Shown here piece by piece: positions 10,453 through 34,213 of a DNA stretch of 34,305 nucleotides (position 1 is its first letter; each line of letters opens with the position of its first letter). This stretch comes from Elusimicrobiota bacterium (GTDB lineage Bacteria; Elusimicrobiota; Elusimicrobia; Elusimicrobiales; UBA9959): the NCBI GenBank assembly GCA_016209085.1, contig JACQWV010000018.1, forward strand, positions 7,296-41,600. The letters are read 5' to 3'. The position numbers were made by a program, and so were the translations under genes. A model generated the notes under the pieces. That model made no database searches. It saw nothing but the letters and a program-made list of their open reading frames with translations, and had not been told where the DNA came from.

Positions 10453-10490
10453 TTTCTTAATCACTTAATCGTTAAATCACTTTTTTATTA
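10453..10490. repeat. Octanucleotide array (TAAGTGAT type)
   Basis: CTTAATCACTTAATCGTTAAATCAC reads as about three 8-bp units of the TAAGTGAT family in reverse orientation. It lies between the surface-protein gene and the first HxsD-like gene on the minus strand and may mark the boundary between two transcripts. Confidence 0.6.
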
Positions 10491-17796: not shown

Positions 17797-19181
17797 AAAT
17801 TCTTCTGACCACTCCCCCTCTTCTGCCGTTTCACACCCTCCAGGGACTATTTCCGAACGGCTCGCCTTTAAATCTCCAGATACTCGCGGGAATATTAAAA
17901 TCAGCCGGTCATGAAGTCCAAATCGCGGACGTCACCCGCCTCCCGCCCATGCACTGGGTTTTCCTGGAGACGATAGAATCCTTTAAACCCGACATCGTGG
18001 GTTTTTCAAATTCCGAAATTTGCAACGCGCCTGTAATCATTGATACGGCCTCAAAACTGCGCAGACTTTATCCGGCCGTGAAACTGCTGGCAGGAGGTCA
18101 GTCTCCCACGTTCTGTCCCGAACTGTTTATCGGTCCCGGCAAACCTTTTCACGCGGTTGCTTTATACGAAGCCGAAGGAACAATCGTGCGTATTGTTGAG
18201 GCCCTGGCCTCAGGCGGTTCTTTTGACAACGTGGCCGGCGCCGCATGGCCCGGAAAAGACGGGCAAATCAAACGCTCTGAAATTGAGCGCATAATTCCTG
18301 ATTTAAATCTTCTGCCTCTTCCGCTCTGGGACGGAACTCTCAGGAAAGCCGCTTTTTCCCGCGGGCTTGCAGCCACGCTTGAGACCTCCAGAGGATGTCC
18401 CTGGGAGTGCACGTTCTGCTCCATTTCCGATTTTTACGGGAAACCTCCGAGATACAAATCCCCTGAACGCATTCTGACAGAGCTGAAAACGCTGAAATCC
18501 AAAGGCGTAACAGAGGCTTATTTCGTGGACGACTCTTTCGGCACAAAACCCGAAATCGTAAAAGAACTTTTTGAAGGCATGATAAAGGAAAAACTGTCCA
18601 TGCGCTTTCTCGCCCAGATCCGCGCCGACATTGTCTGCAATAATCCCGGCTTGATTGAACTTGCCGCCCGCGCCGGCATGTTCATGGCGGTCGTGGGCTT
18701 TGAAGGTTATACCTTGGGCATCCAGAATGAAACGCAAAAAGGCAATTCCGAACAGATAAATCATACGGCCAGCCGGATACTCAGACGCAACGGAATTGCA
18801 GTATACGGCACTCATGTATTCGGATGTCCCGGAAGTTCCTGGAAAGACAATTTTCTTACTTTTATAAAAGGCAGAAGGAATTCCGATTTATTCCGCATGA
18901 CGATTTTTACTCCGCTGCCCGGCTCCAGTTTGTACAGGCAGTTGCTGTCCGAAGGAGGGATTATCTCTAATAACCCCTCGGACTTTTATGAGGGAAAATT
19001 TCTCATAAAAAACTCTCATAACCCGTTTCTGGTTCAGCTCTGTTATTTTGCTTTGTTGGCCGTTCATTACTGTCTGCCCGGCACCATTTTAAAAATGATG
19101 CACCCGGACAGAATAATCAGGGTTTTTCACAGACGGGCATATAAAGGCGCCATACGCTTTGTGCTGGGAAAAATAAAATGA
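17793..19181 (+). CDS. B12-binding-type radical SAM protein
   Basis: This 462-residue protein has an N-terminal Rossmann-like cobalamin-binding-type domain (about 1-150, starting MKILLTTPPLLPF, with 'VKLLAGGQSPTF') and the radical SAM motif C202-x3-C206-x2-C209 ('SRGCPWECTFC'). The classical DxHxxG cobalamin ligand motif is not visible, as is common in this class. Relatives include methyltransferases and ring-forming enzymes in lipid, pigment and antibiotic pathways. The C-terminal helical part is about 130 residues long. The start overlaps the previous gene by four bases (ATGA) and its own end overlaps the next gene likewise, marking an operon. Substrate unknown. Confidence 0.87.
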   Translation: MKILLTTPPLLPFHTLQGLFPNGSPLNLQILAGILKSAGHEVQIADVTRLPPMHWVFLETIESFKPDIVGFSNSEICNAPVIIDTASKLRRLYPAVKLLAGGQSPTFCPELFIGPGKPFHAVALYEAEGTIVRIVEALASGGSFDNVAGAAWPGKDGQIKRSEIERIIPDLNLLPLPLWDGTLRKAAFSRGLAATLETSRGCPWECTFCSISDFYGKPPRYKSPERILTELKTLKSKGVTEAYFVDDSFGTKPEIVKELFEGMIKEKLSMRFLAQIRADIVCNNPGLIELAARAGMFMAVVGFEGYTLGIQNETQKGNSEQINHTASRILRRNGIAVYGTHVFGCPGSSWKDNFLTFIKGRRNSDLFRMTIFTPLPGSSLYRQLLSEGGIISNNPSDFYEGKFLIKNSHNPFLVQLCYFALLAVHYCLPGTILKMMHPDRIIRVFHRRAYKGAIRFVLGKIK

Positions 19182-20626
19182 AACCGCCTGTCGTTCTTCT
19201 TGTAAAAAGCAGAAGCCTCTCGTCCAAAGTTACGGGAATAACCCCGCCTCTGGGGCTTTTATACATTGCCGCGTACCTGAAAAAGCATTTCAGGGCGCAG
19301 GTGCGCGTCATTGACGCGGCGTTTGAGGCTGACCCCGTTGAGTCCGTGCTGAAATCCGTCAAAGAACTTTCTCCCGGCATTCTCGGGATAAGCTCTCTTA
19401 CCGCCGAATCTTTCCTGGCTCACCGCATATCACGGGCGGTAAAAACCGCCTGCCCCCCCATGCCGGTCATAATCGGCGGACCCCATCCCTCCTCGGAACC
19501 TTCATGGGCTCTGGAGGACAAGAATATAGACGCGGCCGTCATAGGCGAAGGAGAAGAGACATTCTATGAACTCGTACGGCTTGTCCATGAGGAAGGAGAG
19601 AACTGGAAAAAATCCCTGAATAAAATAGCCGGAATAGCTTTTATTGAAGACGGACGGCTCAATGTCACCGGGCCGAGAGAACCCATACAGGACCTGGATT
19701 CCCTGCCTTTCCCGGCGTGGGACATTATTGATTACCGCAGATTCTGGAAACGCTCAGGCATGGCAACGTTGGGCGCAAGACCCTATTTCACCATATTCAT
19801 TTCAAGAGGATGCCCCTATCAGTGCGTTTTCTGCCACAAGCTCTTCGGTAAAACTTTCCGCCACCGTTCCCCTGAAAATATAGCGGATGAAATATCCGGA
19901 CTTCTTAAACTGGGCGCCGGGCACATAGAAGTCCTGGACGACATAGCCAATTTCAAAAAAGAGCATTTCAACTCCGTGCTTGAAACCCTGCTTGACCGGG
20001 GGCTGCACCCTGTTTTGAGTTTTCCGAACGCAATCCGCGCCGATATCATGGACAAAGACTCGGTTGATTTGCTGAAAAAAACGGGCGCGGGCGAAGTTTC
20101 CGTGGCGGTGGAAACGGCCTCCGTGCGCCTTCAGAAATTATTGAAAAAAAACCTGAATCTTCAAAAAACAAACGAAACCATAGACCTGCTGGCAAAAAGA
20201 CGGATTCTCACGCGGGGATTTTTTATGCTTGGATTTCCGACCGAAACGGAAGAGGAAATGCGCTCAACCATCCGCTTCGCCCACAAATCCAATCTTCACA
20301 TTGCGCTGTTTTTCACGCCGAACCCGTACCGCAACACCGAGCTTTACGACATGTTCGTCAAAACGGGAAAGATGCCCAAAGACTTCAAAAGCATAGATTT
20401 TGAATATTACGGCGCTCCGTTCAACGCAAGCGAAGTGCCCGACAATTTGTACAGGCGGCTGTATAAATGGGCTTATTACGGATTTTATTTCAACCCGGCA
20501 AGAGCCTGGCGCATAGCGCGGGACAGGCCCGTATTATCCGACATTCCCATGCGCGTGTATTCTCTGCTGAGGAATGTGGCCTCGTTCCGCAGACTTAATG
20601 AAAGCAATAACCAGTCAGTTAAGTAA
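19178..20626 (+). CDS. B12-binding-type radical SAM protein (type A, first copy)
   Basis: This 482-residue protein begins 'MKPPVVLLVKSRSLSSKVTG' with a cobalamin-type domain (about 1-150, 'IIGGPHPSSEPSW' and 'IGEGEETFYELV'). The rSAM motif C212-x3-C216-x2-C219 ('SRGCPYQCVFCH') follows. It is nearly the same protein as 31163-32602, sharing the same start, the 'LDDIANF'/'LDDIVNF' box and 'QKLLKKNLNL', so it is a recent paralogue. It starts in an ATGA overlap with the previous gene and is followed by an octamer hairpin. Function within the class unknown; methyl transfer to an unactivated carbon is plausible. Confidence 0.87.
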   Translation: MKPPVVLLVKSRSLSSKVTGITPPLGLLYIAAYLKKHFRAQVRVIDAAFEADPVESVLKSVKELSPGILGISSLTAESFLAHRISRAVKTACPPMPVIIGGPHPSSEPSWALEDKNIDAAVIGEGEETFYELVRLVHEEGENWKKSLNKIAGIAFIEDGRLNVTGPREPIQDLDSLPFPAWDIIDYRRFWKRSGMATLGARPYFTIFISRGCPYQCVFCHKLFGKTFRHRSPENIADEISGLLKLGAGHIEVLDDIANFKKEHFNSVLETLLDRGLHPVLSFPNAIRADIMDKDSVDLLKKTGAGEVSVAVETASVRLQKLLKKNLNLQKTNETIDLLAKRRILTRGFFMLGFPTETEEEMRSTIRFAHKSNLHIALFFTPNPYRNTELYDMFVKTGKMPKDFKSIDFEYYGAPFNASEVPDNLYRRLYKWAYYGFYFNPARAWRIARDRPVLSDIPMRVYSLLRNVASFRRLNESNNQSVK

Positions 20627-20672
20627 TTAAGTGATTGAGCGATTTAGCTTTTAAACTTAATTACTTACTGAG
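20619..20672. repeat. Facing octanucleotide arrays between rSAM genes
   Basis: TTAAGTAATTAAGTGATTGAG is followed after about ten bases by CTTAATTACTTA in reverse orientation, giving an AT-rich hairpin across the stop codon. The paralogous gene at 31163-32602 is followed by the same kind of hairpin (32601-32747). Confidence 0.65.
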
Positions 20673-20721
20673 CTACGCAGAAATGTAAATCCTCACTGAA
20701 CACCGTTATGTCAGGCAAAAA

Positions 20722-20807
20722 TGTAGGGGCTCAATTCATTGAGCCCGTCCCTGCGTACGCAGGGACTGTCCCGTCCTTATAATTCAAGGAGAGGGACGAC
20801 CCCTACA
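20722..20807. mobile_element. 86-bp MITE-like palindromic element
   Basis: The ends are TGTAGGGG and CCCCTACA in inverted orientation. Inside lie three hairpins in a row: GGGCTCAAT facing ATTGAGCCC across two bases, the perfect 20-bp palindrome GTCCCTGCGTACGCAGGGAC, and a less perfect GTCCCGTCCTT/AAGGAGAGGGAC pair. No transposase is encoded. The layout is that of a small non-autonomous element that folds into a cloverleaf. It has landed over the 5' end of the next B12-rSAM gene. Confidence 0.78.
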
Positions 20808-22337
20808 CCAACGGCGTTGACTGAAGCGCCTGTCACCATGGCGCAGCTGGCAGCAGCGCTAAAGGACAGGCATCACGAGGCGCGCATTCTGGACGGCAAC
20901 GTGTATGAAATACCTCTCCGGAACTACGCTTCTATTATACGGTGGGCTGATGTCGTCGGCATCAATGTGATGTGCTCCTACGCGGCGCTGAACACGGAAC
21001 TGAACCTGAAGTTCATAAAGAATCTCAGGCCGGGCCTCCCTGTGGTAATGGGCGGGCATCATCCGACCTTCCAGGACGGAGAATGGCTGAATAAAGGGGC
21101 GGACGCGGTGGTGCGCCGCGAGGGGGAAATAACCTTCCCTGAACTGGTAGACGCGTTGGCGGCAGGACGCGACTTAAACGACGTGGCCGGAGTTTCGTGG
21201 CGAGATGAGGACGGTTCAATCCGGCGCAACCCTGACAGGCCTTTCATACAGAACCTTGACGACCTGCCAATGCCGGCATGGGACCTGGTAGATTTCTCCG
21301 GCTATTACCTTTATCTGCGCAAGCCGGGCCGTTCAGCTTGCGTGGAGACCGGACGCGGATGCGAGCAGCGCTGCACTTTCTGCCAGGTAGGACCCATGTG
21401 GCGCAATACCCACCGCTTCAAGTCTCCGGAGCGGGTGATTGAGGAGATGCGGCTGCTGAAACGCCATAACGTAACCCAGGTTTTCATAGTGGACGACAAC
21501 TACGGCTCTTCCATGGACACTGCCAGACAGGCAAAGATTTACGAGGGAATGGTCCGCGAGAATTTCGGATTTGAGTGGGGAGGATTCTTCCGGCACGATT
21601 ACATAAGGGCAAACCGCGCATTAATGAAAGATGCGGCCGCCTCGGGGCTGAAATTCGCGTGCGTGGGTTTTGAAAGCGTGGACAGCGCGGACATCAGGAA
21701 GTTCAACAAAGGCAATGCGGGTATCGCAGGGACTGAATTTTACGAAGAAGATTATCGCTTCCTGAAAGCGCTCGGAGTAACCGTGTTCGGCTTTCTGGTG
21801 GTAGGCTATCCGGGCGAAAACCATGCAAGTTCCATGAAAACCCTGGAGGATAATCGCCGCTTCTGCGATTACCCTGTAGTAACCCTGTACAAGCCTTTGC
21901 CCGGCACAGCAGGCTACGCAAAGACCAGACAGGAGCGCCTGCTGGCTAAGGAAATGTTCTATCACGATTCATTTACAGTTGCCGTGAGGGGGACCAGGCC
22001 CATACTTGCAGCGTATAACAGATTTTTCCTGCGCTACCTGGCAGATCCCCTGCGGTTGATACGCAATTTACTGGACCCAAGACTGCGCCGCGTGGAAACT
22101 GCTATAATACAATGGTTCATCATGGGGATGCTGCGCGCCAATAGCCAGAACATAGCGGATTTTTTCTGGTTTCTTTTTAAAGGCCGCAAGTCCGCAGAAG
22201 AGGAAGTGATAGAGCGCCTGCGCAAAAAATATCTTTCAGAGGAGAATGTATTGCGTTTAGCGCGTCGGATTGAAATTATGAAGAATATAAAAAAAATTCC
22301 GGGCTATATTGCAGACAACAGGCAGGTGAAGAAGTGA
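20739..22337 (+). CDS. B12-binding-type radical SAM protein with 5' end replaced by a MITE
   Basis: This 532-residue protein has C208-x3-C212-x2-C215 ('GRGCEQRCTFC') and a mostly complete cobalamin-type domain ('VVMGGHHPTFQDGEW'). Its relatives at 22334 and 32780 start with a first beta strand ('MNLLLTTP', 'MRNILMLQP') and about 30 residues before the 'P-V-T-x-A-Q-L-A' block. Here the first 25 or so residues are translated from the palindromic element, so that strand is missing. The open frame starts at a TTG inside the element; an ATG at 20838 is another possible start and would give an even shorter domain. It ends with a long helical tail. The enzyme may be impaired in cobalamin binding; the radical SAM core is complete. 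Confidence 0.75.
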   Translation: MSPSLRTQGLSRPYNSRRGTTPTPTALTEAPVTMAQLAAALKDRHHEARILDGNVYEIPLRNYASIIRWADVVGINVMCSYAALNTELNLKFIKNLRPGLPVVMGGHHPTFQDGEWLNKGADAVVRREGEITFPELVDALAAGRDLNDVAGVSWRDEDGSIRRNPDRPFIQNLDDLPMPAWDLVDFSGYYLYLRKPGRSACVETGRGCEQRCTFCQVGPMWRNTHRFKSPERVIEEMRLLKRHNVTQVFIVDDNYGSSMDTARQAKIYEGMVRENFGFEWGGFFRHDYIRANRALMKDAAASGLKFACVGFESVDSADIRKFNKGNAGIAGTEFYEEDYRFLKALGVTVFGFLVVGYPGENHASSMKTLEDNRRFCDYPVVTLYKPLPGTAGYAKTRQERLLAKEMFYHDSFTVAVRGTRPILAAYNRFFLRYLADPLRLIRNLLDPRLRRVETAIIQWFIMGMLRANSQNIADFFWFLFKGRKSAEEEVIERLRKKYLSEENVLRLARRIEIMKNIKKIPGYIADNRQVKK

Positions 22338-23938
22338 ACCTTTTACTTACCACCCCGCTGTGCATAGCATCGCGTTTTATGTCTGCCAATGATTTTCCTA
22401 TGGTCTGGGGACCGCATCCGCCGGTTACCCTAGCGCAGTTGGCAGCCATGGCCGGGCCCTCGCGGAAAGTGAAAATTTTTGACGCGCTGGTATCCGGATT
22501 GGACCTCAGGGAATTCGGAAAGTGGGCGGCGGAAGCTGACGCTATAGGCATCACCTGTTCCGCATCCCAGCTGGCATTGAACGCGGAAATAACGGTACGG
22601 CTGGTCCGCCGGCTCAGACCCGACCTGCCCATAATAATGGGCGGGCATCACCCGACTTTTTACGGTCCGGAATGGTTAGCACGCGGCGCTACAATCATAG
22701 TACACGGCGAAGGAGAACATACACTCGCGGAACTTTTGGATCGCATAGAGAAAAAGCGCGGGTTCCACGATGTGAAAGGGATTTCCTTTATGGAAGGAGG
22801 CCAGGTGGTGCGCACCCCGGAAAGGGAAATGGTGACTGATTTGGACAGCCTGCCTTTTCCGGCCTGGGATATGATGGACCTGCGCGGCTACCAGCAGTTC
22901 ACGGCCCGGGGCGGGCTCACCGTATCACTGGAGACCTCGCGCGGCTGCACGAACAGATGCTCTTTTTGCCTGGCCACCCGCATGTGGGACGGGAAACAGC
23001 GTTATCGTTCTATACCAAAGGTCATTGAAGATCTAAAGCGGCTGCAGGGCATGGGGGCGGACCAGTTGCTTTTCGTCGGGGACGGCTTCGGCAACCCGCC
23101 GGAATATCACGCCGAGCTCATGCGGGAGATGCTAAAAACCGGCATAGATATGCACTGGATGTCCTTCATGCGCGTTGACTCCATATTAAAGGATCCTATC
23201 CTGCCGGCGCTAATGGCACGCTCCGGTTGCAAAGCCGTGTTCATAGGTTTTGAGTCCCCGCGCCAGGACCTGCTGAAAAAGTGGAACAAAGGTCCTTCCG
23301 GCGCCGCCGACGTTTCTACATACCCCGAAGTGTTTCGGCTTCTGGACCAGGCCGGGATACTGGTCTTCGGTTTTCTGCTGGTTGGCCACCCTGACGAACG
23401 GCCGGAAGACATCCCTGAGACGATGCGGCTTAACCAGCAGTGGTGCGATATTCCCCTGGTCAACGCGCTGCAACCCATGAAGGGCACCCCTGACTACAAT
23501 GACTATGAACGCCGGGGAATACTGGCCAAGGACATGTTCTATCACGATGTGCGCATCCCGAGCCTGAAAGGCGTAGAGAAGAATGTGCCAATAGCCATGC
23601 GCATTTTTATGCGCCAGATACTTTTTAAGTTTCCGTTCCATGTCTTTTCCAGGAAGGAAACAAAGCGCCGGTTCCTACGGCATATGTACCGCTTCCTTGC
23701 CGGGGAATTTGCGGCCGCCTCGTTGGATGGCATGAGGGATTACCTGAAGCTGCTGAACTTCGGTGGGCTGAGCCCCGCCGAGCTGCAGGACGCAATAGTC
23801 CGCAAGCATACTTCCGAAGAAAGATTAGCGCTCCTGGCGCGAGCGTCCGCTGGAAGCCGCCCGGTACCTGACCCGGACAGAAAAAAATGGCAAAAATACT
23901 GCTCCGCAAATGCGTGTGGGACTTCAAATTTTACCTGA
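22334..23938 (+). CDS. B12-binding-type radical SAM protein
   Basis: This 534-residue protein starts with GTG overlapping the previous stop by four bases (GTGA). It has a complete cobalamin-type domain beginning MNLLLTTPLC, with 'IIMGGHHPTFYGPEW' and 'VHGEGEHTLAELL', then C205-x3-C209-x2-C212 ('SRGCTNRCSFC'). It also has a late 'FGFLLVGHPDE' strand and a helical tail of about 130 residues. It is closely related to the upstream neighbour, sharing the 'LAKDMFYHD' box, which also occurs in altered form at 32780. The repeated 'MFYHD' suggests a shared substrate or partner. It is followed after 16 bases by the next gene, still in the same operon. Confidence 0.87.
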   Translation: MNLLLTTPLCIASRFMSANDFPMVWGPHPPVTLAQLAAMAGPSRKVKIFDALVSGLDLREFGKWAAEADAIGITCSASQLALNAEITVRLVRRLRPDLPIIMGGHHPTFYGPEWLARGATIIVHGEGEHTLAELLDRIEKKRGFHDVKGISFMEGGQVVRTPEREMVTDLDSLPFPAWDMMDLRGYQQFTARGGLTVSLETSRGCTNRCSFCLATRMWDGKQRYRSIPKVIEDLKRLQGMGADQLLFVGDGFGNPPEYHAELMREMLKTGIDMHWMSFMRVDSILKDPILPALMARSGCKAVFIGFESPRQDLLKKWNKGPSGAADVSTYPEVFRLLDQAGILVFGFLLVGHPDERPEDIPETMRLNQQWCDIPLVNALQPMKGTPDYNDYERRGILAKDMFYHDVRIPSLKGVEKNVPIAMRIFMRQILFKFPFHVFSRKETKRRFLRHMYRFLAGEFAAASLDGMRDYLKLLNFGGLSPAELQDAIVRKHTSEERLALLARASAGSRPVPDPDRKKWQKYCSANACGTSNFT

Positions 23939-23954
23939 GCAGCGGAGAAACAAT

Positions 23955-25433
23955 ATGAAAATATTATTTTTGGACCCTCCCCATACATTCTGGGAATTTT
24001 TCAGGGGCATGACAGCATCACCCTCCCTTATATATCTTGTCGCTGTGGCGCGCCGCGAATTCGACGTAAAAGTCTTTGACGCGTCTATGGAACCGGATAG
24101 TCCATGGGACAGAACTGCCCAATACTTAGAAAAAGAGCGGCCTGATGTCGTCGCTATAACAGGCTCGGTAACGGCATTCTGGCCTACCACGCTGAACTGC
24201 GCGAAGCTGGTCCGCGAAATACTGCCGAAAGCCCGGATTATAACCGGCGGTTATACCGCTTCAATATTCTGGGAAGACGCGTTAAGGGACGAAGTCGCGG
24301 ATTATGTGATCATGGGCGAAGGCGAATTGACGTTAATGGAGCTTTTAAGAGCGCTGAACGCAAACAAAACCGACGTTTCCCGTATACTTGGCCTGGCATA
24401 TTTGAAGAACGGAGCGCCGGTGAAAAACGCGGCGAGGCCGTTAATGCAGAACCTTGACGAACTGCCGCCGCCCGCGTATGACCTGTTCCCCATGGAGCGT
24501 TATGGACTGGCGCCGTTCGGCGGCAAGGTGGGATTTACTGTAACCCTTGCAAGGGGCTGTCAGGGCAACTGCGTGTTCTGCTCCGAGACGCAGTTGTGGC
24601 AGCACACCTGGCGCGGGCACGGCGCGCAGTACATGGTGGATACCCTTGAAGTTTTAAGCGTAAAATACGGCAAAAAAATATTTTACATCGGCGACAACGA
24701 TTTCCTGCACGATGAGGAACGGACAGAAGAGTTCATCGCGCTGATGACTAAAAGACGGCCTGACGTGAAAATGTGGATACAGACCACCTGCGCCAACCTC
24801 ATCAAGAACGAAAAACATCTTAAATACCTCAGGGACATCGGCGTCTACCAGATAATGTTAGGAATAGAAACCGTTAGCCCCGAGGGGCTCAAGCGCCTCA
24901 ACAAGCCGCAGACAATGGAAACCGTGACTAGGGCGGTTTCAATTGCGCATTCTTACGATTTCATCCTCATGGGGATGCTCATGTGGGGCGCCCCGTGGGA
25001 CACAAAGGCCGGCCTGCATAATACGTTTGAATTCCTCTCTAAAACTTGCGACATAATCGGGCCCAATGCTACGACCCCGTGGCCGGGGACATCTTATTAC
25101 CAAGAATGCGAAAAGATGGGTGCGATTGAAGTCCGAGACCTTTCCAAATATAATATGTTGGACTGCGTGACCCGCACCGCTGAACTTTCGGCGAAGGAAT
25201 CCGACGCGTATTATAAGAATGTGGTCGGCAAGGGGCTCTTGTTCAACAAGAAATCTTTGTACAATTACTTTTTTTCGAACAAACTCCTGTACCGGACCTA
25301 CTACATGATGTTCGTCAAGATGGGCTGGAGTTTCTTCACAGGCAAGCCCTGGCGACAGAAAAATTACCAGCGTTTTGAGGATTTTATCCGCAAAAGACAC
25401 GGGGACATGATTCAAACCGGGGTACGCTCATGA
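23955..25433 (+). CDS. B12-binding-type radical SAM protein
   Basis: This 492-residue protein has its start set at the ATG with GGAG seven bases ahead. A reading that starts further upstream adds residues with no match to the domain. It has a cobalamin-type domain (MKILFLDPPHTFW, 'IITGGYTASIFWEDAL', 'IMGEGELTLMELL') and C202-x3-C206-x2-C209 ('ARGCQGNCVFC'). It differs from the neighbours by 'GHGAQYMVDTLEVL' and 'IGDNDFLHD', and so may act at another step. It ends in a Lys/Arg-rich tail. It is the last gene before the new promoter of the small-peptide cassette. Confidence 0.87.
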   Translation: MKILFLDPPHTFWEFFRGMTASPSLIYLVAVARREFDVKVFDASMEPDSPWDRTAQYLEKERPDVVAITGSVTAFWPTTLNCAKLVREILPKARIITGGYTASIFWEDALRDEVADYVIMGEGELTLMELLRALNANKTDVSRILGLAYLKNGAPVKNAARPLMQNLDELPPPAYDLFPMERYGLAPFGGKVGFTVTLARGCQGNCVFCSETQLWQHTWRGHGAQYMVDTLEVLSVKYGKKIFYIGDNDFLHDEERTEEFIALMTKRRPDVKMWIQTTCANLIKNEKHLKYLRDIGVYQIMLGIETVSPEGLKRLNKPQTMETVTRAVSIAHSYDFILMGMLMWGAPWDTKAGLHNTFEFLSKTCDIIGPNATTPWPGTSYYQECEKMGAIEVRDLSKYNMLDCVTRTAELSAKESDAYYKNVVGKGLLFNKKSLYNYFFSNKLLYRTYYMMFVKMGWSFFTGKPWRQKNYQRFEDFIRKRHGDMIQTGVRS

Positions 25434-25461
25434 TTGACACTGCAAACACCGGTCTTATAGA
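25434..25461 (+). promoter_or_regulatory. Sigma70-like promoter for the 40-residue peptide gene
   Basis: A perfect TTGACA is followed after 16 bases by TATAGA, itself leading into AATATTATAA, so a start of transcription at about 25468 is expected. That leaves a leader of about 24 bases holding AAGGAG and the ATG. It lies directly after the stop codon of the preceding operon and gives the peptide its own promoter. Confidence 0.6.
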
Positions 25462-25491
25462 ATATTATAAATGAGCGACAAGGAGAAAAAT

Positions 25492-25614
25492 ATGCCTGCA
25501 ACAAAACAAGCGGTAAGAAAAACCGCGAAGACTGCTATTAAACAACTGAACAAACCGAAAACCGGGACAAAGAATCTTTCTAGATACTGTCGTTCCGGCC
25601 GTGTCCTCTGGTAA
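25492..25614 (+). CDS. 40-residue basic peptide, candidate RiPP precursor
   Basis: The start is the ATG with a perfect AAGGAG six bases ahead. An ATG seven codons earlier (25471) has no such site. The peptide has a Lys/Arg/Thr-rich front of about 28 residues ('MPATKQAVRKTAKTAIKQ', then 'LNKPKTGTKN') with no acidic residue and a helical pattern. It ends in LSRYCRSGRVLW, holding the only Cys (C33) and the aromatic residues Y32 and W40. Such a leader-plus-short-core layout directly ahead of an rSAM/SPASM enzyme is the usual RiPP arrangement. A thioether from C33 or a Tyr/Trp crosslink is the likely modification, but I recognise no family. A strong promoter precedes it and a terminator-like hairpin follows. 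It could also be a small nucleic-acid-binding protein, given its charge. Confidence 0.72.
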   Translation: MPATKQAVRKTAKTAIKQLNKPKTGTKNLSRYCRSGRVLW

Positions 25615-25633
25615 GCGCCAAACAGTTCATATC

Positions 25634-25669
25634 CCGGAAGTCCCCGTTCTTGCGGGGACTTCCGGTTTT
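25634..25669 (+). terminator. Perfect 13-bp hairpin with T-run: attenuator between peptide and maturase
   Basis: CCGGAAGTCCCCG and CGGGGACTTCCGG pair without mismatch around the six-base loop TTCTTG, followed by TTTT. This is a textbook intrinsic terminator 20 bases after the peptide's stop codon and 13 bases before the maturase ATG. As the maturase has no other visible promoter, partial read-through would give much precursor and little enzyme. Confidence 0.85.
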
Positions 25670-25682
25670 CGCGGAGACAGGC

Positions 25683-27170
25683 ATGACGCTATCGCCAGTA
25701 TATCTTTTTGAAAAACTGGGACGCCGCATAGGCGTTTCAACTTGTACCGGAGACTTTTACGAACTCCCATTTGCAACCTTTAATTCCCTTAAAAAATGGG
25801 ACCACGCAATATGTAAAAGCAAAGGCGCCGTCTCCGCCGTTGCGGCCGAAAAACTGGCGAGGCGGTTTTCCATCCCGGAGGAAGTTTCCAGGCGCTTCCC
25901 TTTGCGTCCCGCAAGCTGCATGACGCCGAAAGTCTCGGCCATTCTTACCGACCTGACTTTGAATATAACCTCTGACTGCAACCTCCGCTGCGTCTATTGC
26001 TGGAACGACACCGGGAAATATTCCAACAGCGCATTTAAGAGCGAAAAGGCCGGGCCGCGCTCTGAAGCCCCCTGCCTTCCCCCAATGTCCCAGGAGACGG
26101 CAGTTAAGGCCGTAGACTTGCTGGTCCAAATGAGCGCAGGGGAGAAACAACTGGTAGTGGATTTCTACGGGGGAGAACCCCTGAAGAACCTCCCCACCCT
26201 TCTAGCCACAGTGGAATACTGCAAGACCATTGAAAGGAAGAAAAAAACAAAGTTCCATTTTTTGCTCGCCACCAACGGCACCCTTCTGACCCCGGAACTG
26301 GCCGAAAAACTCATAGGCCTCGGCGTGCAGATAGCGGTAAGCGTGGATGGACCAGGACCCATACACGACAGAAACAGGCCGATGCGCAACGGAAATGGCA
26401 GCTTCGCGGCGATAGCCGGGAACCTGCAGAAAATGCGCCCGGAAATAAGACTACGGCTCGTCGGTAGAACAACCGTAACGCCGTATTATACGGATATGGT
26501 CTCGCTTTACCGGAATCTGAAGGAACTGGGCTTTGAGCGAGTGGAGATATTTGAAAGCGAGGATGCCTGCCACAGGATAACACAGGGGCGAGAATCTATT
26601 TTTTTTCAGAAGCAGAAGGATTTCCGCAGACTTTTCAGGGAATATGAGCTGCTGGCCGGAAAATATTCCGAAGAGGCCGTCAGCGGCGTTCTTGACTACG
26701 GTAAGACCTTTTTCAACAGGTTCTTCAAACTTATGCAGCGGCTTTACTACAATCATCATGTCACAGGCGGCTGTCCGGCCGCCCAGGGGCAGATCGCAGT
26801 CTCGGCCGACGGGGAAATCTTTCCCTGCACCTCTTTCATAGGAATAACTGCCTTTTCACTAGGGAACGTGCATTCCGGTGTGAACCGGAAAAAATATCTT
26901 TCCCTTCTTGAACAGATGAAAAAAAGGTTCAGAGAATGCGGCAACTGCCGTCTGTTCAGCGTATGCGGGACCACCGGTTCATGCCTCAATATAAACCACT
27001 ACTTCAACAGGGACATCTCCAAGCCTCATCTTAGGAGCTGCAGGCTGTTCGAAGAAAAAATAAAACTGGCTATAGCCGTGCTCGCTGTCCTATCAGAAAG
27101 GATGCCTGACAGGCTGGAATCTCTTTTTGGACACGATCCGGTAGGTCGGCGCGGCAACAAACTTTATTGA
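25683..27170 (+). CDS. Radical SAM/SPASM peptide maturase of the thioether-forming type
   Basis: This 495-residue enzyme is taken from the ATG with GGAG ahead of it; a TTG 33 bases upstream lies inside the hairpin and is unlikely. Residues 1-90 form an N-terminal domain ('YLFEKLGRRIGVST', 'FYELPFATFNSLKKW') that may bind the leader peptide. C99-x3-C103-x2-C106 ('CNLRCVYCWND') and YGGEPL at 162-167 form the SAM core. The SPASM domain has all seven expected cysteines: C364 (GGCPAA), C382 (FPCTSF), C419, C422, C428, C434 and C453. 'GGCPAA...GEIFPC...LGNV' and 'CxxCxxxxxCG' are what thioether-forming maturases show. It follows the 40-residue peptide, which is the inferred substrate. Confidence 0.88.
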   Translation: MTLSPVYLFEKLGRRIGVSTCTGDFYELPFATFNSLKKWDHAICKSKGAVSAVAAEKLARRFSIPEEVSRRFPLRPASCMTPKVSAILTDLTLNITSDCNLRCVYCWNDTGKYSNSAFKSEKAGPRSEAPCLPPMSQETAVKAVDLLVQMSAGEKQLVVDFYGGEPLKNLPTLLATVEYCKTIERKKKTKFHFLLATNGTLLTPELAEKLIGLGVQIAVSVDGPGPIHDRNRPMRNGNGSFAAIAGNLQKMRPEIRLRLVGRTTVTPYYTDMVSLYRNLKELGFERVEIFESEDACHRITQGRESIFFQKQKDFRRLFREYELLAGKYSEEAVSGVLDYGKTFFNRFFKLMQRLYYNHHVTGGCPAAQGQIAVSADGEIFPCTSFIGITAFSLGNVHSGVNRKKYLSLLEQMKKRFRECGNCRLFSVCGTTGSCLNINHYFNRDISKPHLRSCRLFEEKIKLAIAVLAVLSERMPDRLESLFGHDPVGRRGNKLY

Positions 27171-27545: not shown

Positions 27546-27585
27546 ACAAAACTCGGAAAAAGTCTTGACTTTTTCCGAGTTTTGT
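27546..27585. repeat. 18-bp perfect inverted repeat before the ATPase gene
   Basis: ACAAAACTCGGAAAAAGT faces ACTTTTTCCGAGTTTTGT with a four-base loop (CTTG). The symmetry is perfect. It overlaps a promoter-like -35 box and ends 14 bases before the ATG, so it could be an operator or an mRNA hairpin. Confidence 0.85.
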
Positions 27586-27593
27586 TGAATAAT
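27565..27593 (+). promoter_or_regulatory. Candidate promoter of the ATPase gene
   Basis: TTGACT and AATAAT are separated by 17 bases, directly ahead of the ATG. The -35 box lies in the loop and right arm of the inverted repeat, which suggests control by a dimeric regulator or cruciform. The very short distance to the start codon implies a nearly leaderless message. Confidence 0.45.
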
Positions 27594-27599
27594 AGAAGT

Positions 27600-28817
27600 A
27601 TGATTGAAAGAAACATACGCTCTGAAGCGGAAAACATCATTGGAAATTATAAAAAAATGGCCTTTATAAGCGGACCCAGACAGGTCGGCAAAACGACTCT
27701 TGCAAAAAAAATACTAAAAGAAACCGGGCAGGGAATTTATTTCAACTGGGACATAATAACCGACCAGAAAAAGCTGATAAAGGACCCTTATTTCTTTGAG
27801 AAAGAGAACAGAGAAACAAAAAAGATATTTCTGGCGGTTTTTGACGAAATACACAAATATTCAAAATGGAAAAATTATCTTAAAGGCGTTTATGATTCAT
27901 ACGCCGGAGAATTTGCGTTTATAGTTACGGGAAGCGGACGCCTGGACCTGTTTAAAAAAGGAGGAGATAGTTTGCTTGGCAGGTATTTTTCTCTCCCTTT
28001 ATTCCCGCTTACGGTCGGCGAAATTCTTGGCGGCATTCCGGACTGGAATGCGTTCAAACAGATGCTTGCGGATATGCCTGAGCCAAGCGGTTCCCGAAAG
28101 GTTTACGAATCGCTCATCAGACTATCAGGGTTTCCGGAACCTTTTCTAAGAGACAGCGAAAGATTTTACAGGATGTGGTTTCAGGAAAGAAAAACTCTTC
28201 TAATCCGCGAAGACATTAGAAATGCCTATGCCATACGAGAAATCTCAAACATGGAGGTTCTCTCAAATATTCTGCCGGAGAGAATAGGCAGTCCCCTATC
28301 AATTAACTCCTTGCGCGAGGATGTCGGCGTTTCTTTTGACACGCTTAAAGCCTGGCTCTTGACGCTCTCGCAGTTCTATTACATCTTTAAAATATCCCCC
28401 TTTTCAAAGTCTATTTCCAGAGCGCTTAAAAAAGAATCTAAAATATACCTTTACGACTGGGTGGAAGTCCCTGATGAGTCCTTCCGTTTTGAAAATCTTG
28501 CGGCGTTTCACATTTATAAAGCCGTAAATTTATGGCGCGTAATGGGACAGGCCCGCGCCGATTTGTTTTATCTGCGGGACAAGGAAAAACGGGAAGTGGA
28601 TTTCATCCTGACTGAAAACAACAAACCTTTAGTCTTGATAGAATGCAAACTTAATGAGGAAGATTTTTCAGGCAATTTATTGTCTTTCCAGAATAAACTG
28701 GAAGCTCCATTTGCCGTTCAGTTGGTTAACAAAAGGGGAATTTGCAGAAAAACAAGTAGAAACGGTTTTATTCAGTGGATGGTCTCAGCAGAGCGGTTTC
28801 TCGGCGCATTGCCGTAA
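27600..28817 (+). CDS. AAA-family ATPase with DUF4143 domain
   Basis: This 405-residue protein has a Walker A motif GPRQVGKT at about 25-32, a Walker B-like 'FLAVFDEIHKY' at about 76-86, and a sensor-like 'FIVTGSGRLDLF'. The C-terminal DUF4143 region ends in a nuclease-like 'REVDFILTENNKPLVLIECKL' (PD-(D/E)xK-type). These proteins occur in very many copies in uncultured bacteria; their role is unknown, with toxin-antitoxin-like or mobile functions suggested. The ATG is chosen over an upstream TTG that lies within the inverted repeat. Its own promoter and its unrelated content mark it as an insert between the rSAM operons. Confidence 0.88.
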   Translation: MIERNIRSEAENIIGNYKKMAFISGPRQVGKTTLAKKILKETGQGIYFNWDIITDQKKLIKDPYFFEKENRETKKIFLAVFDEIHKYSKWKNYLKGVYDSYAGEFAFIVTGSGRLDLFKKGGDSLLGRYFSLPLFPLTVGEILGGIPDWNAFKQMLADMPEPSGSRKVYESLIRLSGFPEPFLRDSERFYRMWFQERKTLLIREDIRNAYAIREISNMEVLSNILPERIGSPLSINSLREDVGVSFDTLKAWLLTLSQFYYIFKISPFSKSISRALKKESKIYLYDWVEVPDESFRFENLAAFHIYKAVNLWRVMGQARADLFYLRDKEKREVDFILTENNKPLVLIECKLNEEDFSGNLLSFQNKLEAPFAVQLVNKRGICRKTSRNGFIQWMVSAERFLGALP

Positions 28818-28938: not shown

Positions 28939-29391
28939 ATGCGGAGAACCCTGCACATCGCCGTCGCGATTTTTCCCGTCATGGTTTTTTTAAGGGTGGC
29001 GCGGCATTACGGGCTCACTGACCAGGCGTGGATGAGAGCTTTTGTAACCGGCGCGGCTTTATCCTTAATCATAATAACCGCGTTTGTCCTTAAACGCGCG
29101 CGGTTCAGAGACCTCCTCTTCGCTTCAGGTTTGCTGTTAGTGTCCGGCGCAATCGCTTTCCTGGCTGACATAAAACCGATGCTGGCTGTTTATAAAAGAT
29201 TTCAGGGCTCTATATTTATGTTCTGGTACCTGCTGGTCAGGGCGGTCTTTGCTTTTGCGCCGGGCATGATTTCCGCTTTTGTCCAGGACCCGTATGAAAA
29301 GGCGCCGAAACTGGCCGCCGTTTTCACCTCTGCCATGTTTGTATGGTCGTTTTTTTTCACAATCCCATGGTCTCGGCAGTTCTGCCTGTGA
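28939..29391 (+). CDS. Small integral membrane protein, possibly frameshifted
   Basis: I do not recognise this 150-residue protein. It has four or five hydrophobic segments (about 7-20, 36-51, 61-73, 90-109 and 121-138) with basic loops. It ends abruptly in 'SFFFTIPWSRQFCL' after a run of eight T at 29350-29357. One extra base there would continue the frame as 'HNPMVSAVLPVILMLILLYPVE', a further good membrane helix, to a stop at 29507 that overlaps the next gene. The present end is therefore likely a frameshift, real, programmed or a sequencing error. No ribosome-binding site is clear. It lies upstream of the FAD protein and may form a unit with it. Confidence 0.6.
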   Translation: MRRTLHIAVAIFPVMVFLRVARHYGLTDQAWMRAFVTGAALSLIIITAFVLKRARFRDLLFASGLLLVSGAIAFLADIKPMLAVYKRFQGSIFMFWYLLVRAVFAFAPGMISAFVQDPYEKAPKLAAVFTSAMFVWSFFFTIPWSRQFCL

Positions 29392-29490
29392 TTCTCATGC
29401 TGATACTGCTTTACCCTGTGGAATGCCGCTCTGCGGCTGGCGCTGTACAACGCCAATTCCACAGGGTTGACCCGGTTGAAAGAGGCTCCG

Positions 29491-31020
29491 ATGGAACAAA
29501 TAGATAAAAAATACGATGCCGTGATAATCGGCGCCGGACCCGGCGGGCTTTCAGCCGGGTTGTCGCTTGCGGCCCGGGGCTGGAAAACGCTCATTGCGGA
29601 AAAAAACGACAAGCCCGGCGGCAACTGCGCCTCTCTTAAAATCGGGGATTACACTTTTGACCTGGCGGTTCACCAGCTTTCCGGCATAGGCGGGCCCGGC
29701 ATGGCAGCTGCTGTCCTTAAGAATTACGGCATAGCTGATAAAATAGCTTTCAGGCAGGTCAATCCCTTCCTGGTCGTGGACATGCCTGACCGCTCCTATA
29801 CTCTGGCCGGCGACAGGGACGGACTGCGCGCCGGACTGATAAAGGATTTTCCTGAAGACGCCTCGGATATAGACCGCACGCTGGCCGGCATGGACACGCT
29901 TAGGAAAGACGCCCTGATATCGCATCGCCTGCTCCACGGCTCAAACCCGGTAGTGAACAACATGATGGCAGAGACAGTGGACGCTCTGAAAATAGCCACA
30001 TTCCCTTTCACTTTCCTCTGGGGACTGCTTCTGAAGATGCCGTTCAACGCGGACATCATGATACGCCGCTGGATAAGAAACCCAAAACTGCGCTCCGTGA
30101 TTCATGCTTCCTGGATTTATCTGGGCCTGCCGCCCAGCCGGATTTCAGGCGTGATGATGGACGTTTTTGTATCCATGCAGCACGCCGAGCACACTTATTA
30201 CCCTGCAGGCGGTTCTCAGAAATTAGCCGACGCAATGGCGGAAGGTTTTCTAAGCCGCGGAGGAAAACTCCTGCTGAACTCTCCTGTCTCAAAAATAATG
30301 GCTGAGAACAGCCAGGTCAAAGGGGTGGAAATAGCCGGAGGAGAAAAATTTTATTCCGATATCGTGATTTCCAACGCCGACGCGCGCCACACTTACAGAG
30401 ACCTGTTGGAGCCGGGCCAGGCGCCGGAGCGGTTCACAAAAAAACTTTGGAAAATGTCTCTTTCCATGGCGCCCTTCCGCGTCTTTCTTGGCCTGGACTA
30501 TAACGTGGCCGAACACGGGCTGAAGTGCCACGAGTATATAATCTTCCCCGGTTACGACCACGAGGAGACGTACCGCTCTTTTGAGCGCGGCGAGCCTGCC
30601 GCTATGAGCGTATATTCTCCCACAAAAATATGCCAGGAACTGTCCCCGCCAGGGCACAGCACCCTGATACTCACCACTATGCTGCCCTGGCGGCCCGAGA
30701 AAGACTGGCGCGGCCGCGAACAAGAGCTGGCATCGGAAATGATAGAAATGGCGGAGAAGAAAAGACTGCCCGGCCTTTCAAAACATATTGCCGTAAAACG
30801 CATAATGACGCCTGAAGATTTCGCGGCGCTGACGAACGCTTCCGAAGGCTCTATGTACGGCTGGGCAAACACCCCGGACCAAGTGCTGACGCGCCGGCTT
30901 TCCATGAAGTCGCCTGTAAAAGGGCTTTACCACACTGGTCACTGGACCAGACCCGGCACCGGCGTCACAACTGCCATACTTTCAGGCTGGATGCTTGGCA
31001 ATATGCTCAATAACCAGTAA
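29491..31020 (+). CDS. Phytoene-desaturase-like FAD-dependent oxidoreductase
   Basis: This 509-residue protein begins with a dinucleotide-binding fold at about residues 8-40 ('DAVIIGAGPGGLSAGLSLA', then a Glu in 'IAEKNDKPGGNC'). It ends with 'GLYHTGHWTRPGTGVTTAILSGWMLG', the FAD-closing motif of the CrtI/amine-oxidase group. Members act on isoprenoid or other lipid double bonds, so a role in lipid or carotenoid-like metabolism is plausible. The start ATG has AGAGG ahead; an upstream TTG in frame is possible but has no such site. It is followed by a REP-like cluster and two B12-type rSAM genes. Confidence 0.85.
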   Translation: MEQIDKKYDAVIIGAGPGGLSAGLSLAARGWKTLIAEKNDKPGGNCASLKIGDYTFDLAVHQLSGIGGPGMAAAVLKNYGIADKIAFRQVNPFLVVDMPDRSYTLAGDRDGLRAGLIKDFPEDASDIDRTLAGMDTLRKDALISHRLLHGSNPVVNNMMAETVDALKIATFPFTFLWGLLLKMPFNADIMIRRWIRNPKLRSVIHASWIYLGLPPSRISGVMMDVFVSMQHAEHTYYPAGGSQKLADAMAEGFLSRGGKLLLNSPVSKIMAENSQVKGVEIAGGEKFYSDIVISNADARHTYRDLLEPGQAPERFTKKLWKMSLSMAPFRVFLGLDYNVAEHGLKCHEYIIFPGYDHEETYRSFERGEPAAMSVYSPTKICQELSPPGHSTLILTTMLPWRPEKDWRGREQELASEMIEMAEKKRLPGLSKHIAVKRIMTPEDFAALTNASEGSMYGWANTPDQVLTRRLSMKSPVKGLYHTGHWTRPGTGVTTAILSGWMLGNMLNNQ

Positions 31021-31054
31021 ACAGCAAACAGAATACAGGAAACAGGAAGTAGCG

Positions 31055-31121
31055 GCAGAGCGAAGCTCTGCAAATGTAGTTGCAGACCTTGGTCTGCAAA
31101 CGCATGCAAAGCAAGCTTTGC
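31055..31121. repeat. Cluster of three REP-like hairpins
   Basis: Three perfect hairpins stand in a row: GCAGAGC/GCTCTGC, TGCAGACC/GGTCTGCA and GCAAAGC/GCTTTGC, with loops of two or three bases. They match the single hairpins at 1589 and 8125 and lie between the FAD gene and a B12-rSAM gene, a typical place for REP elements. Confidence 0.7.
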
Positions 31122-31162
31122 CACTGGATGCTGGGTAACAGGCTCAGCAAACTAAAAAAATT

Positions 31163-32602
31163 ATGAGACCTCCTGTTGTTTTGCTTGTCAAAAGCAGAAG
31201 CGTGGTTTCCAAAATAAGGGGGTTTTCCCCGCCCATGGGGCTCCTCTATATCGCCTCGTATCTGCGCAAACATCTTTCAGCCGACGTGCGTATTATAGAC
31301 GCCCTTTTTGAAATAGACGTTTCCAAAAAAATACTCCAAGTCCTGGCCGGGCGCAAAATAGATATTGTCGGCATAAGCGGACTCACCTCGGAATCTTTTC
31401 TCGCTCATAAAATAGCCTCCGCAGTAAAAACCGAAAACCCGCAAATGCCTCTCGTGCTCGGCGGCCCGTATCCCTCGTCCGACCCGGAAACCGCTCTGAA
31501 GGATAAAAACGTGGACGCAGCAGTGATGGGCGAAGGCGAAGAGACTTTTGCGGAACTTGTCCGCATAGTTCTGGACCAGGGGCCCGGCTGGAAAAACGAA
31601 AACGTATTAAAGCAGGTTGATGGGGTCGCTTTCCGCAGCAACGGAGCAGTTCATATTACGCCACAGAGAAAATTCATAGAAAACCTGGACTTCCTGCCGC
31701 TTCCGGCATGGGACATGATTGATTACCGAAAATTCTGGAAAGTAGGCGGTATGGCCACTGTGGGAATAAGACCGTACATGCCCATTATCACATCGCGTGG
31801 ATGTCCGTATCACTGCCTGTTTTGCCATAACCTTTTCGGCAAGGCCTTCCGCGGACGTTCTCCCGAATCCGTGGCGGAAGAAGTCGCCGTGATTCATAAA
31901 TCAGGCGCCAGGGAAATTGAAGTGCTGGACGACATTGTCAATTTTAACCCGGAACGGTTCAACCGCATGCTGGAACTGCTTCTGGAGCGGAACCTGCGTT
32001 CCGTTCTGCATTTTCCCAACGCCATCAGGGCGGATATCATTCAAGAGGAATCCCTGGACTTGCTCAAGCAGGTGGGAGCGGGCGAAGTCTCGGTCGCTGT
32101 GGAAACCGCTTCCGAGCGTCTCCAGAAACTCTTGAAAAAAAATCTCAATCTTGAAAAAGTAAACAAAACCATAGACATGATGGCAAAGCGCAGGATATTT
32201 ACGCGCGGTTTTTTTATCCTCGGTTTGCCTGATGAAACCGAGGAAGAAATGCTCTCAACCATCCGTTTCGCGCATAACTCAAATCTTCATTTCGCGTTAT
32301 TTTTCAACCCGAATCCGTACCCCGGCACCGAGATGTACGACATGTTTAACAAAGCAGGCAGGATGCCTTCAGATGTGAGTTCCATAGATTTTGAATATTT
32401 CGGCGCGCCGTTCAACGCAAGCCATGTGTCAGGCAAAAGATATAGAATGTTATACAGACGGGCTTATTACGGATTTTATCTTAATTCTGTGCGCGCCTGG
32501 CGCATAGCCAGGGACGGCCCTTTCGGATGGGATATCCCTCTCAGAGCCGTAAATCTATTCCGTCATTATACTTCCTTTCGCCGTCTTAAGGAGAGCGAAT
32601 AG
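31163..32602 (+). CDS. B12-binding-type radical SAM protein (type A, second copy)
   Basis: This 479-residue protein begins 'MRPPVVLLVKSRSVVSKIRG'. It has a cobalamin-type domain ('LVLGGPYPSSDPETAL', 'MGEGEETFAELV') and C214-x3-C218-x2-C221 ('SRGCPYHCLFC'). Almost every block matches 19178-20626, including the C-terminal 'YYGFYLNSVRAWRIARDGP', so the pair is a recent duplication. Like its paralogue it is followed by an octamer hairpin and then a B12-rSAM gene of the second type. The surrounding FAD genes suggest lipid-like chemistry, which is inference. Confidence 0.87.
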   Translation: MRPPVVLLVKSRSVVSKIRGFSPPMGLLYIASYLRKHLSADVRIIDALFEIDVSKKILQVLAGRKIDIVGISGLTSESFLAHKIASAVKTENPQMPLVLGGPYPSSDPETALKDKNVDAAVMGEGEETFAELVRIVLDQGPGWKNENVLKQVDGVAFRSNGAVHITPQRKFIENLDFLPLPAWDMIDYRKFWKVGGMATVGIRPYMPIITSRGCPYHCLFCHNLFGKAFRGRSPESVAEEVAVIHKSGAREIEVLDDIVNFNPERFNRMLELLLERNLRSVLHFPNAIRADIIQEESLDLLKQVGAGEVSVAVETASERLQKLLKKNLNLEKVNKTIDMMAKRRIFTRGFFILGLPDETEEEMLSTIRFAHNSNLHFALFFNPNPYPGTEMYDMFNKAGRMPSDVSSIDFEYFGAPFNASHVSGKRYRMLYRRAYYGFYLNSVRAWRIARDGPFGWDIPLRAVNLFRHYTSFRRLKESE

Positions 32603-32747
32603 TGATTAGTGGATAGTGGTCGGTGATTAAGTGATTAAGCAAATAGTGATTAAGTAATTAAGTTCTATTTAAAAAATTTCTAAAAACTTAATCGCTTAAT
32701 TACTCAATACACTCAATTACTTTTTGTCACTCACCACTAACCACTTT
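32601..32747. repeat. Long facing octanucleotide arrays
   Basis: Units of TAGTGATTA and GTGATTAAG type run for about 64 bases. After an A/T-rich spacer come CTTAATCGCTTAATTACTCAAT units and finally TCACCACTAACCACT, the complement of the first units. The whole can form a hairpin of more than 50 pairs with mismatches, between two rSAM genes. Confidence 0.75.
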
Positions 32748-32779
32748 CTACGAGCAGTGTTGTTCATGATTCATATATT

Positions 32780-34213
32780 ATGCGCAATATTTTAATGCTG
32801 CAGCCCCTGAGAATATATAAACGCTGGCCGGCCCCGGAGGATTTCACCGGACTTCTGGGCGGAACCCCGACCCTCGCGTTTGCGCAGCTGCGCGCCTGCC
32901 TTAAGAATTATCAGGTTGACTACATGGACGGAACGGTCAGGGATTATTCATTGGCAGAACTGACAAAACGCGCTCAGGACGCGGACGCTGTGCTTGTAAA
33001 CGCTCACTCCAGCGTGGGCGCGCTTAATACGGAAGCGAACGTCAGACACTTGCTGGAAACCTGTCCGGGAAAACCCGTAATCGTGGGCGGGCATCATGCC
33101 ACTGCTTATGATTTTGAATGGCTGGAGCGGGGCGTTCATTTCGTGGTCAGGAACGAAGGAGAAAGAACCATAGTTGAATTGTTAGAAGCTGTTAAAAACG
33201 GCGGGGCTGTAGATAAGATAGCGGGAATTTCCTGGCAAGACGGAAAACGGAATTTTCATCGCAACCCCCCCAGACCATTAACTCCGAGTCTGGATGAACT
33301 GCCGATTCCGGACTGGACTATTTATAACCCTGAACTTTATTATCTGCCGCTGCCCATACCGGGCTATTCAACGACTGCGGAAACTTCAAGAGGATGCAGT
33401 TTCAGCTGCAAATTCTGCGCGGCAAGCGAAATGTGGAGCCATACGCACCGTTTCAAATCCCCGGGCAGGGTTCTTGAGGAACTGCGGATTTTAAACACGC
33501 TGGGATTTACCAGAATCTGGTTCTCGGACGACAATTTCGGAGCGGAGCCGGAGCGCTACGCCCTGATTTACGAAGGCATATTAAAGGAAAACCTGAAATT
33601 CAATTTCGCGGCGTTCATCCGTTCCGACGCGGTCGTGAGATCTCCTGAAACAATCAAGCTGGCTTACCGCGCCGGAATGCGCGTGGCTTTGCTGGGCATT
33701 GAAACCCAGATAAACAGGCTCCTTGAAGATTATTCAAAATCCACCGACGCCCGGACCAACCTGAAGGCGGTGGAAATATTGCGCGAGACCGGCATTTTTA
33801 TCGGCGGATTTATGATGGTCGGATATCTTGACGAAACTCGGGAGGAAACGGAATCCACTTTCCGCGCGGCAGACAAATTAACCGACTATCCCATCATATC
33901 AATATTTGAGCCGCGTTCCGGAACCAGGGATTTTACCCGCGCCAGAGAAAAATCTGATTTGCCCGGTGCAGACATGTTTTATCACAACACGGTTAAATTC
34001 ATTCCGAGCAAAAGACATCTTCTTCGTGAATACCGCGGTTTTTACAGGCGCTATCTGACCCATCCGAAGCAGTTAAGAAAATTTCTGTCCGGCACAGCCG
34101 TTGAGAAGGCGTGGTACCGCACCCTGTACAAGAATCTGGCGAAATCCGTTTTTTCTCTCTCTGCGGCAAAGATTTTGCACCCATGGGAAATGGTTCGGGA
34201 TATTCATAAATAG
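32780..34213 (+). CDS. B12-binding-type radical SAM protein (type B)
   Basis: This 477-residue protein has a complete cobalamin-type domain (MRNILMLQPLRIYKRW, 'VIVGGHHATAYDFEW', 'VRNEGERTIVELL') and C206-x3-C210-x2-C213 ('SRGCSFSCKFC'). It is related to 20739-22337 (shared 'HTHRFKSP' or 'NTHRFKSP' and 'DDNFG'/'DDNYG'), but with an intact N terminus. It keeps the 'MFYHN' box also seen as 'MFYHD' in the genes at 20739 and 22334. It ends with a short helical tail. The next gene, an FAD protein, begins 33 bases later. Confidence 0.86.
   Translation: MRNILMLQPLRIYKRWPAPEDFTGLLGGTPTLAFAQLRACLKNYQVDYMDGTVRDYSLAELTKRAQDADAVLVNAHSSVGALNTEANVRHLLETCPGKPVIVGGHHATAYDFEWLERGVHFVVRNEGERTIVELLEAVKNGGAVDKIAGISWQDGKRNFHRNPPRPLTPSLDELPIPDWTIYNPELYYLPLPIPGYSTTAETSRGCSFSCKFCAASEMWSHTHRFKSPGRVLEELRILNTLGFTRIWFSDDNFGAEPERYALIYEGILKENLKFNFAAFIRSDAVVRSPETIKLAYRAGMRVALLGIETQINRLLEDYSKSTDARTNLKAVEILRETGIFIGGFMMVGYLDETREETESTFRAADKLTDYPIISIFEPRSGTRDFTRAREKSDLPGADMFYHNTVKFIPSKRHLLREYRGFYRRYLTHPKQLRKFLSGTAVEKAWYRTLYKNLAKSVFSLSAAKILHPWEMVRDIHK

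Follow-up and report, generated by a model that had tools for sequence, protein, structure and literature searches.

A conserved peptide-maturase cassette in three Elusimicrobiota genomes: a RiPP family without a name, of the CteB/PapB kind

Is the 40-residue peptide encoded in front of a radical SAM/SPASM enzyme in an Elusimicrobiota genome a substrate of that enzyme, and if so, what would the pair produce? We address this in a window of 34,305 nucleotides, by which we mean the whole stretch of DNA that was analysed; it is part of a metagenome-assembled genome (G000:C47). Positions 25434-27170 hold, in succession, a promoter, a ribosome-binding site, the peptide gene, a perfect hairpin and the enzyme gene (Table 1). 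An initial annotation had read these elements as a RiPP system, and that reading is now supported by the conservation of the pair, by an invariant peptide tail whose DNA changes silently, by an RRE-like domain in the enzyme and by CteB as its best solved homologue. As a whole, the locus is best explained as a minimal RiPP system with thioether chemistry at Cys33, to which we give a probability of roughly 0.6. The cassette is a genuine RiPP family without a name, of the CteB/PapB kind, and apparently a peptide natural-product system undescribed so far; the literature searched yielded no paper on Elusimicrobiota radical SAM RiPPs, and the core motif of the peptide appeared in none of its relevant papers.

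Table 1. Positions of the cassette elements and of the surrounding B12-radical-SAM cluster in the window
Feature	Position	Strand	Basis
Sigma-70-like promoter, TTGACA-16-TATAGA, alternatively 18-TAGAAT	25434-25461	+	Promoter scan, sequence
Ribosome-binding site, AAGGAG	25480-25485	+	Sequence
Precursor peptide, 40 aa	25492-25614	+	ORF and homologues in two relatives
Hairpin (perfect inverted repeat) between both genes, stem CCGGAAGTCCCCG	~25634-25665	+	Fold z, conservation
Radical SAM/SPASM peptide maturase, 495 aa	25683-27170	+	Pfam, NCBIfam, PDB, Cys conservation
N-terminal RRE (leader-binding) domain predicted in the maturase, ~ residues 1-76	25683-25910	+	AF2 model, Foldseek
Seven clustered radical SAM enzymes with B12-binding domains; those scanned score as BchE/HpnJ-like	17793-25433 and 28939-34213		
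Small membrane protein in the B12 cluster	28939-29391		
FAD phytoene-desaturase-like protein in the B12 cluster	29467-31020		

The initial annotation had proposed a search for the peptide-enzyme pair in related genomes, and this was run in six frames over 341 Elusimicrobiota genomes with a profile of each partner. The enzyme was found in exactly three of them, the window's own genome, GWF2_62_30 (L005, on G143:C95) and E14_concoct.bin.112 (L006, on G034:C313), and no less similar enzyme was added at E-values up to 1e-30. The peptide profile recovered the same three genomes at E ~1e-22 or better, the peptide lay directly upstream of every one of the three enzymes, and no credible peptide without the enzyme occurred among the 341 genomes. 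The peptide profile also gave more remote matches (E 6e-4 to 1) in another 164 genomes, which were taken as noise; the two inspected (L013 and L015) are broken frames that lack the core. The three enzymes are 79-84% identical, and clear similarity between the loci begins at the sequence ATTGACA and ends at the enzyme stop codon. Because the pair recurs intact in three genomes with differing flanks, we regard it as a real system. A genome-collection scan with the enzyme was also run, which detects close relatives only; viral contigs gave no homologue, and the best listed matches on plasmids, 25-30% identical, were general SPASM enzymes such as PeaB.

The control elements are likewise shared. 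The promoter begins right where the preceding gene stops, with the -35 box at 25434-25439 and, after a spacer of 16 nucleotides, TATAGA at 25456-25461; with the alternative -10 box TAGAAT and an 18-nucleotide spacer, the scan counted 11 of 12 consensus matches. Both promoter and AAGGAG site had been named in the initial annotation and are present in the sequence. ATTGACA is the same at all three loci, both relatives reading TTGACA-17-TATACT, and each relative has GGAGG at approximately the equivalent position to the ribosome-binding site. Conservation of the -35 box, ribosome-binding site, peptide, hairpin and enzyme in two more genomes indicates that their succession here is more than chance.

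The peptide ORF runs for 40 codons from ATG 25492 to the stop codon TAA (25612-25614), as had been described; an upstream ATG at 25471 would give 47 residues, and the start kept in the relatives is that at 25492. It has a Lys-rich leader (residues 1-28) and a core, LSRYCRSGRVLW, at residues 29-40, with an overall pI of ~11.6. Its homologues (L005:5808-5918 and L006:5810-5920) have 36 residues each. The core is identical in 12 of 12 residues across the three loci and the leaders diverge, with 7 of 28 columns invariant, so that at the protein level these peptides combine the variable leader and kept core expected of a RiPP precursor. Core DNA differs between pairs of loci at 10, 9 and 5 of 36 positions, every one of these differences being synonymous, and when matched numbers of random changes were simulated (200,000 trials) the fractions of trials that left the core protein intact were 0, 5e-6 and 8e-4. 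In the leaders of L005 and L006, 15 of 23 differences fall in amino-acid-changing codons. Core changes that are exclusively silent, and so rarely matched in simulation, show that selection acts on the peptide. The two observations that had been named as fatal to the RiPP reading, a peptide not kept beside homologues of the enzyme and a tail conserved as nucleotides without its residues, are thus the reverse of what is found. Nor had the peptide been recognized as a member of any named class, and this stands: NCBIfam gave no match for any of the three peptides and Pfam none for the window peptide, and the PDB returned ribosomal-protein noise only.

The enzyme carries the radical SAM motif CNLRCVYC (C99, C103 and C106) and, as the initial annotation had recognized, seven SPASM-type cysteines (364, 382, 419, 422, 428, 434 and 453), all of them invariant in the three homologues, which share 13 invariant cysteines in total. 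Their arrangement, C364-X12-G-X4-C382, C419-X2-C422-X5-C428, C434 and C453, agrees with the pattern of SPASM enzymes (CX3CX2C with seven Cys as CX9-15GX4C-CX2CX5CX3C-C) except in the last spacing, which is CX2CX5CX5C and not the usual CX2CX5CX3C. Pfam scored Radical_SAM at 60 bits and SPASM at 20.0 bits, slightly below its cut-off of 21.5. Every named maturase family in NCBIfam stayed under its own cut-off: PapB (NF047865) was best with 221.3 bits against 340, followed by the nif11-peptide maturase (TIGR04064; 194.8 against 518.7), QhpD (TIGR03906; 192.5 against 453) and the SCIFF maturase (TIGR03974; 181.6 against 425), whereas models of the cyclophane or darobactin type were far weaker (YhhB 88 bits, DynA 73). 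The best PDB match was CteB (5wgg, E 4.5e-41, positions 9-465). By sequence, then, the maturase is closest to the thioether-forming maturases.

A leader-binding domain is likely at its N-terminus. The isolated first 76 residues were modeled by AF2 with medium confidence (pLDDT 68) as a three-stranded sheet followed by three helices, the full-length model having been set aside at pLDDT 44. Foldseek searches of the PDB with this model gave no match at E <0.001, and a sequence profile of the N-terminal region found no RRE there; each of the eight best Foldseek matches was a chain of a RiPP leader-binding protein (TbiB1 or the microcin B17 synthetase McbBCD; E 0.06-0.5), and although each is weak, taken together they make an RRE likely. 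All three loci have a short encoded precursor beside a modifying enzyme, in which a leader-binding domain is predicted from the window sequence; these features mark RiPPs independently of class, and the peptide is very probably the substrate of the adjoining maturase.

We propose that a precursor of 36-40 residues and one maturase, in which RRE, radical SAM barrel and SPASM domain are fused, would make up the minimal system, and that the enzyme probably rewires the invariant last twelve residues of the peptide. The RRE would bind the Lys-rich leader, and the 5'-deoxyadenosyl radical would take a hydrogen from the core. In CteB one site of the auxiliary cluster is left open, presumably for the donor Cys (PMC8326336); Cys33 could be held likewise and joined to the activated carbon, giving a thioether with a loss of 2 Da. 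We favour a thioether at C33 with moderate confidence. In CteA, Cys32 is linked to Thr34 or Thr37 (PMC8326336), and PapB joins Cys to the carbon beside an Asp or Glu carboxylate, tolerating 0-6 residues between the two (PMC9413430). The core here has a single Cys and is without Asp, Glu, Asn and Thr, so all the ranthipeptide acceptors named in these sources are missing and the usual ranthipeptide bond has no partner here. As the only carboxylate of the core is its C-terminus, the likeliest acceptors would be S35, in a C-X-S spacing like that of Cys32-Thr34 in CteA, or W40 at the C-terminus, and we put these forward tentatively. A host protease might then release a short, cationic cyclic peptide. 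With a single-Cys precursor lacking the known acceptors, a CteB/PapB-like enzyme would have to use an acceptor new to thioethers or make another kind of bond.

Several known systems resemble the cassette in part. SCIFF (ScfA/ScfB, CteA/CteB) likewise pairs a short, strongly conserved precursor of no settled function with an RRE-radical SAM-SPASM maturase that resembles QhpD (PMC8326336); however, its precursor packs six Cys into 45 residues and offers Thr as acceptor, and the system is widespread in Clostridia (PMC8326336), while the present cassette occurs in three Elusimicrobiota species. PapA/PapB provides the top NCBIfam model and the expectation of Cys-to-carbon thioether chemistry, but PapA has six CX3D/E motifs (PMC9413430), which a core without Asp or Glu cannot match. 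The QhpD and nif11-peptide maturases, next in profile score, act on a dehydrogenase subunit or on nif11-type precursors, unlike the present peptide. Mycofactocin (MftA/MftC) and PQQ (PqqA/PqqE) are made from invariant short cores by SPASM maturases, the mycofactocin precursor also ending in an aromatic residue as the present one does; in contrast to both, neither an MftB/PqqD partner nor genes of the MftE/PqqF type lie beside the present cassette, and the predicted RRE is fused to the maturase.

In the leading rival reading, also a RiPP, Y32 or W40 would be crosslinked through a C-C, C-O or C-N bond in the manner of PQQ, streptide or darobactin, or the C-terminal Trp would be oxidised or decarboxylated as in mycofactocin, to yield a small redox cofactor, with Cys33 serving for binding only. 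The aromatic residues and the C-terminal Trp are indeed invariant, a defined cofactor would suit the total invariance of the core and SPASM enzymes perform such reactions (PMC8326336), but the top scores of the enzyme belong to thioether formers, well above YhhB and DynA, and no PqqF/MftE-like processing gene is common to the loci; we consider it unlikely. A modification without a ring, such as an epimerised residue or an altered Arg or Ser, is improbable: epimerases and others do occur among radical SAM peptide enzymes (PMC8326336), but the full set of seven SPASM cysteines with a predicted RRE is as in CteB and the best scores are those of crosslinking maturases.

The hairpin between the genes raises a further alternative. 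Its arms, CCGGAAGTCCCCG and CGGGGACTTCCGG, are perfectly complementary and its fold z is -4.25 in the window and -5.80 and -4.56 in the relatives; the inner stem AGTCCCCG/CGGGGACT is identical at all three loci and the next outer G-C pair is swapped to C-G in L005. Each of the three genomes has a single copy, within the cassette only, and G145 has none; a genome-wide repeat is ruled out by this single copy. The initial annotation had called it a perfect terminator hairpin and attenuator, of which the hairpin is real and conserved, but the terminator function does not follow. Four T residues occur 3' of it here (TTTTCG), the relatives read CTATAG or CTTTATG and so lack the T-tract of an intrinsic terminator, it is absent from the output of the terminator scan and Rfam had no match in the window. 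Given the short T run here and none in the relatives, we infer instead a conserved mRNA element, for instance one that adjusts the amount of peptide relative to enzyme, or else a site for a protein. Could the short ORF then be a regulatory leader peptide or upstream ORF that steers the enzyme through this hairpin, with the enzyme acting elsewhere? The position of the hairpin directly 3' of the ORF, conserved and unique to the locus, would fit, but the C-terminus is kept at the protein level with freely varying codons, the T-tract is missing and the enzyme has an RRE-like domain, so this is very improbable. Chance, finally, does produce short ORFs, and five C-x6-W-stop patterns turn up when the window is read in all six frames, but a chance ORF is refuted: three genomes keep this ORF together with its start, core and stop, and the core substitutions are silent only.

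We return to the proposed thioether-forming RiPP system and to what its product might do. In the window the cassette comes after three genes of the B12-radical-SAM cluster. This cluster is conserved in E14_concoct.bin.112 (G034:C313 18740-32509), including the small membrane protein and the FAD desaturase-like protein, and there the cassette lies one gene earlier in the same cluster, inverted relative to the window. In GWF2_62_30 the cassette stands apart from the B12 cluster, a 71-72% identical homologue of the neighbouring B12 enzyme being on another contig. Within the phylum set, four genomes encode a homologue of that enzyme (23910-25433), and three of the four carry the cassette as well (Fisher P ~1e-4 within the family, uncorrected for shared ancestry or joint transfer), and a functional link between cassette and cluster is plausible. 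Between the window and G034 the maturases are 80% identical and the B12 neighbours 76-82%, as alike as or more alike than the slowly evolving RpoB (76.6%), which suggests horizontal transfer of the cluster with its cassette; mis-binning of contigs is a possible alternative. That the core stays invariant despite this apparent transfer suggests a target or partner that is well defined. No peptidase, transporter or immunity gene is common to the three loci. Considering this lack of a conserved immunity gene or transporter, the core invariance and the recurrence within the B12-radical-SAM cluster, we suggest, tentatively as to function, that the product is a conserved signal or cofactor-like compound and not a diversifying antibiotic.

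PapB is reportedly able to use the C-terminus of the peptide itself. A more specific and doubtful proposal is that Cys33 is joined to the C-terminal Trp (C-X6-W) in a naturally evolved side-chain-to-C-terminus thioether ring that needs no acidic or amide acceptor, and that the product, a conserved small molecule, acts together with the B12-radical-SAM/FAD pathway within which two of the three cassettes are located. All of these readings draw on three homologous loci.

Some neighbouring genes deserve mention in their own right. An AAA-type ATPase-like ORF of lower GC content (41%) lies between the cassette and the remaining B12 cluster (27582-28817), is absent at the equivalent place in G034 and looks inserted. 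Directly 3' of the cassette in GWF2_62_30 only, L005 7658-8887 encodes a protein that looks secreted and contains the metalloprotease-like motif AHEMLGH; it is a candidate leader peptidase, and the two other loci do not share it. Paralogous proteins starting MKLSVAANWDKALL...LKGLPVHSV (G143:C93 19353-20552 and G145:C216 20195-22560) adjoin homologues of the B12 enzyme 23910-25433 and are perhaps part of its pathway. Among the many other radical SAM genes of the window are three HxsB-like SPASM maturases above the TIGR03978 cut-off (79-1509, 5131-6558 and 8495-9940, all on the minus strand). Beside one HxsB-like gene, a secreted-looking protein with a LQLTTYYPAPYGGYARL motif (10488-11261, minus strand) is a possible maturase target, and its 45% identical homologue in G145:C216 (11278-12030) also lies near an HxsB-like gene.
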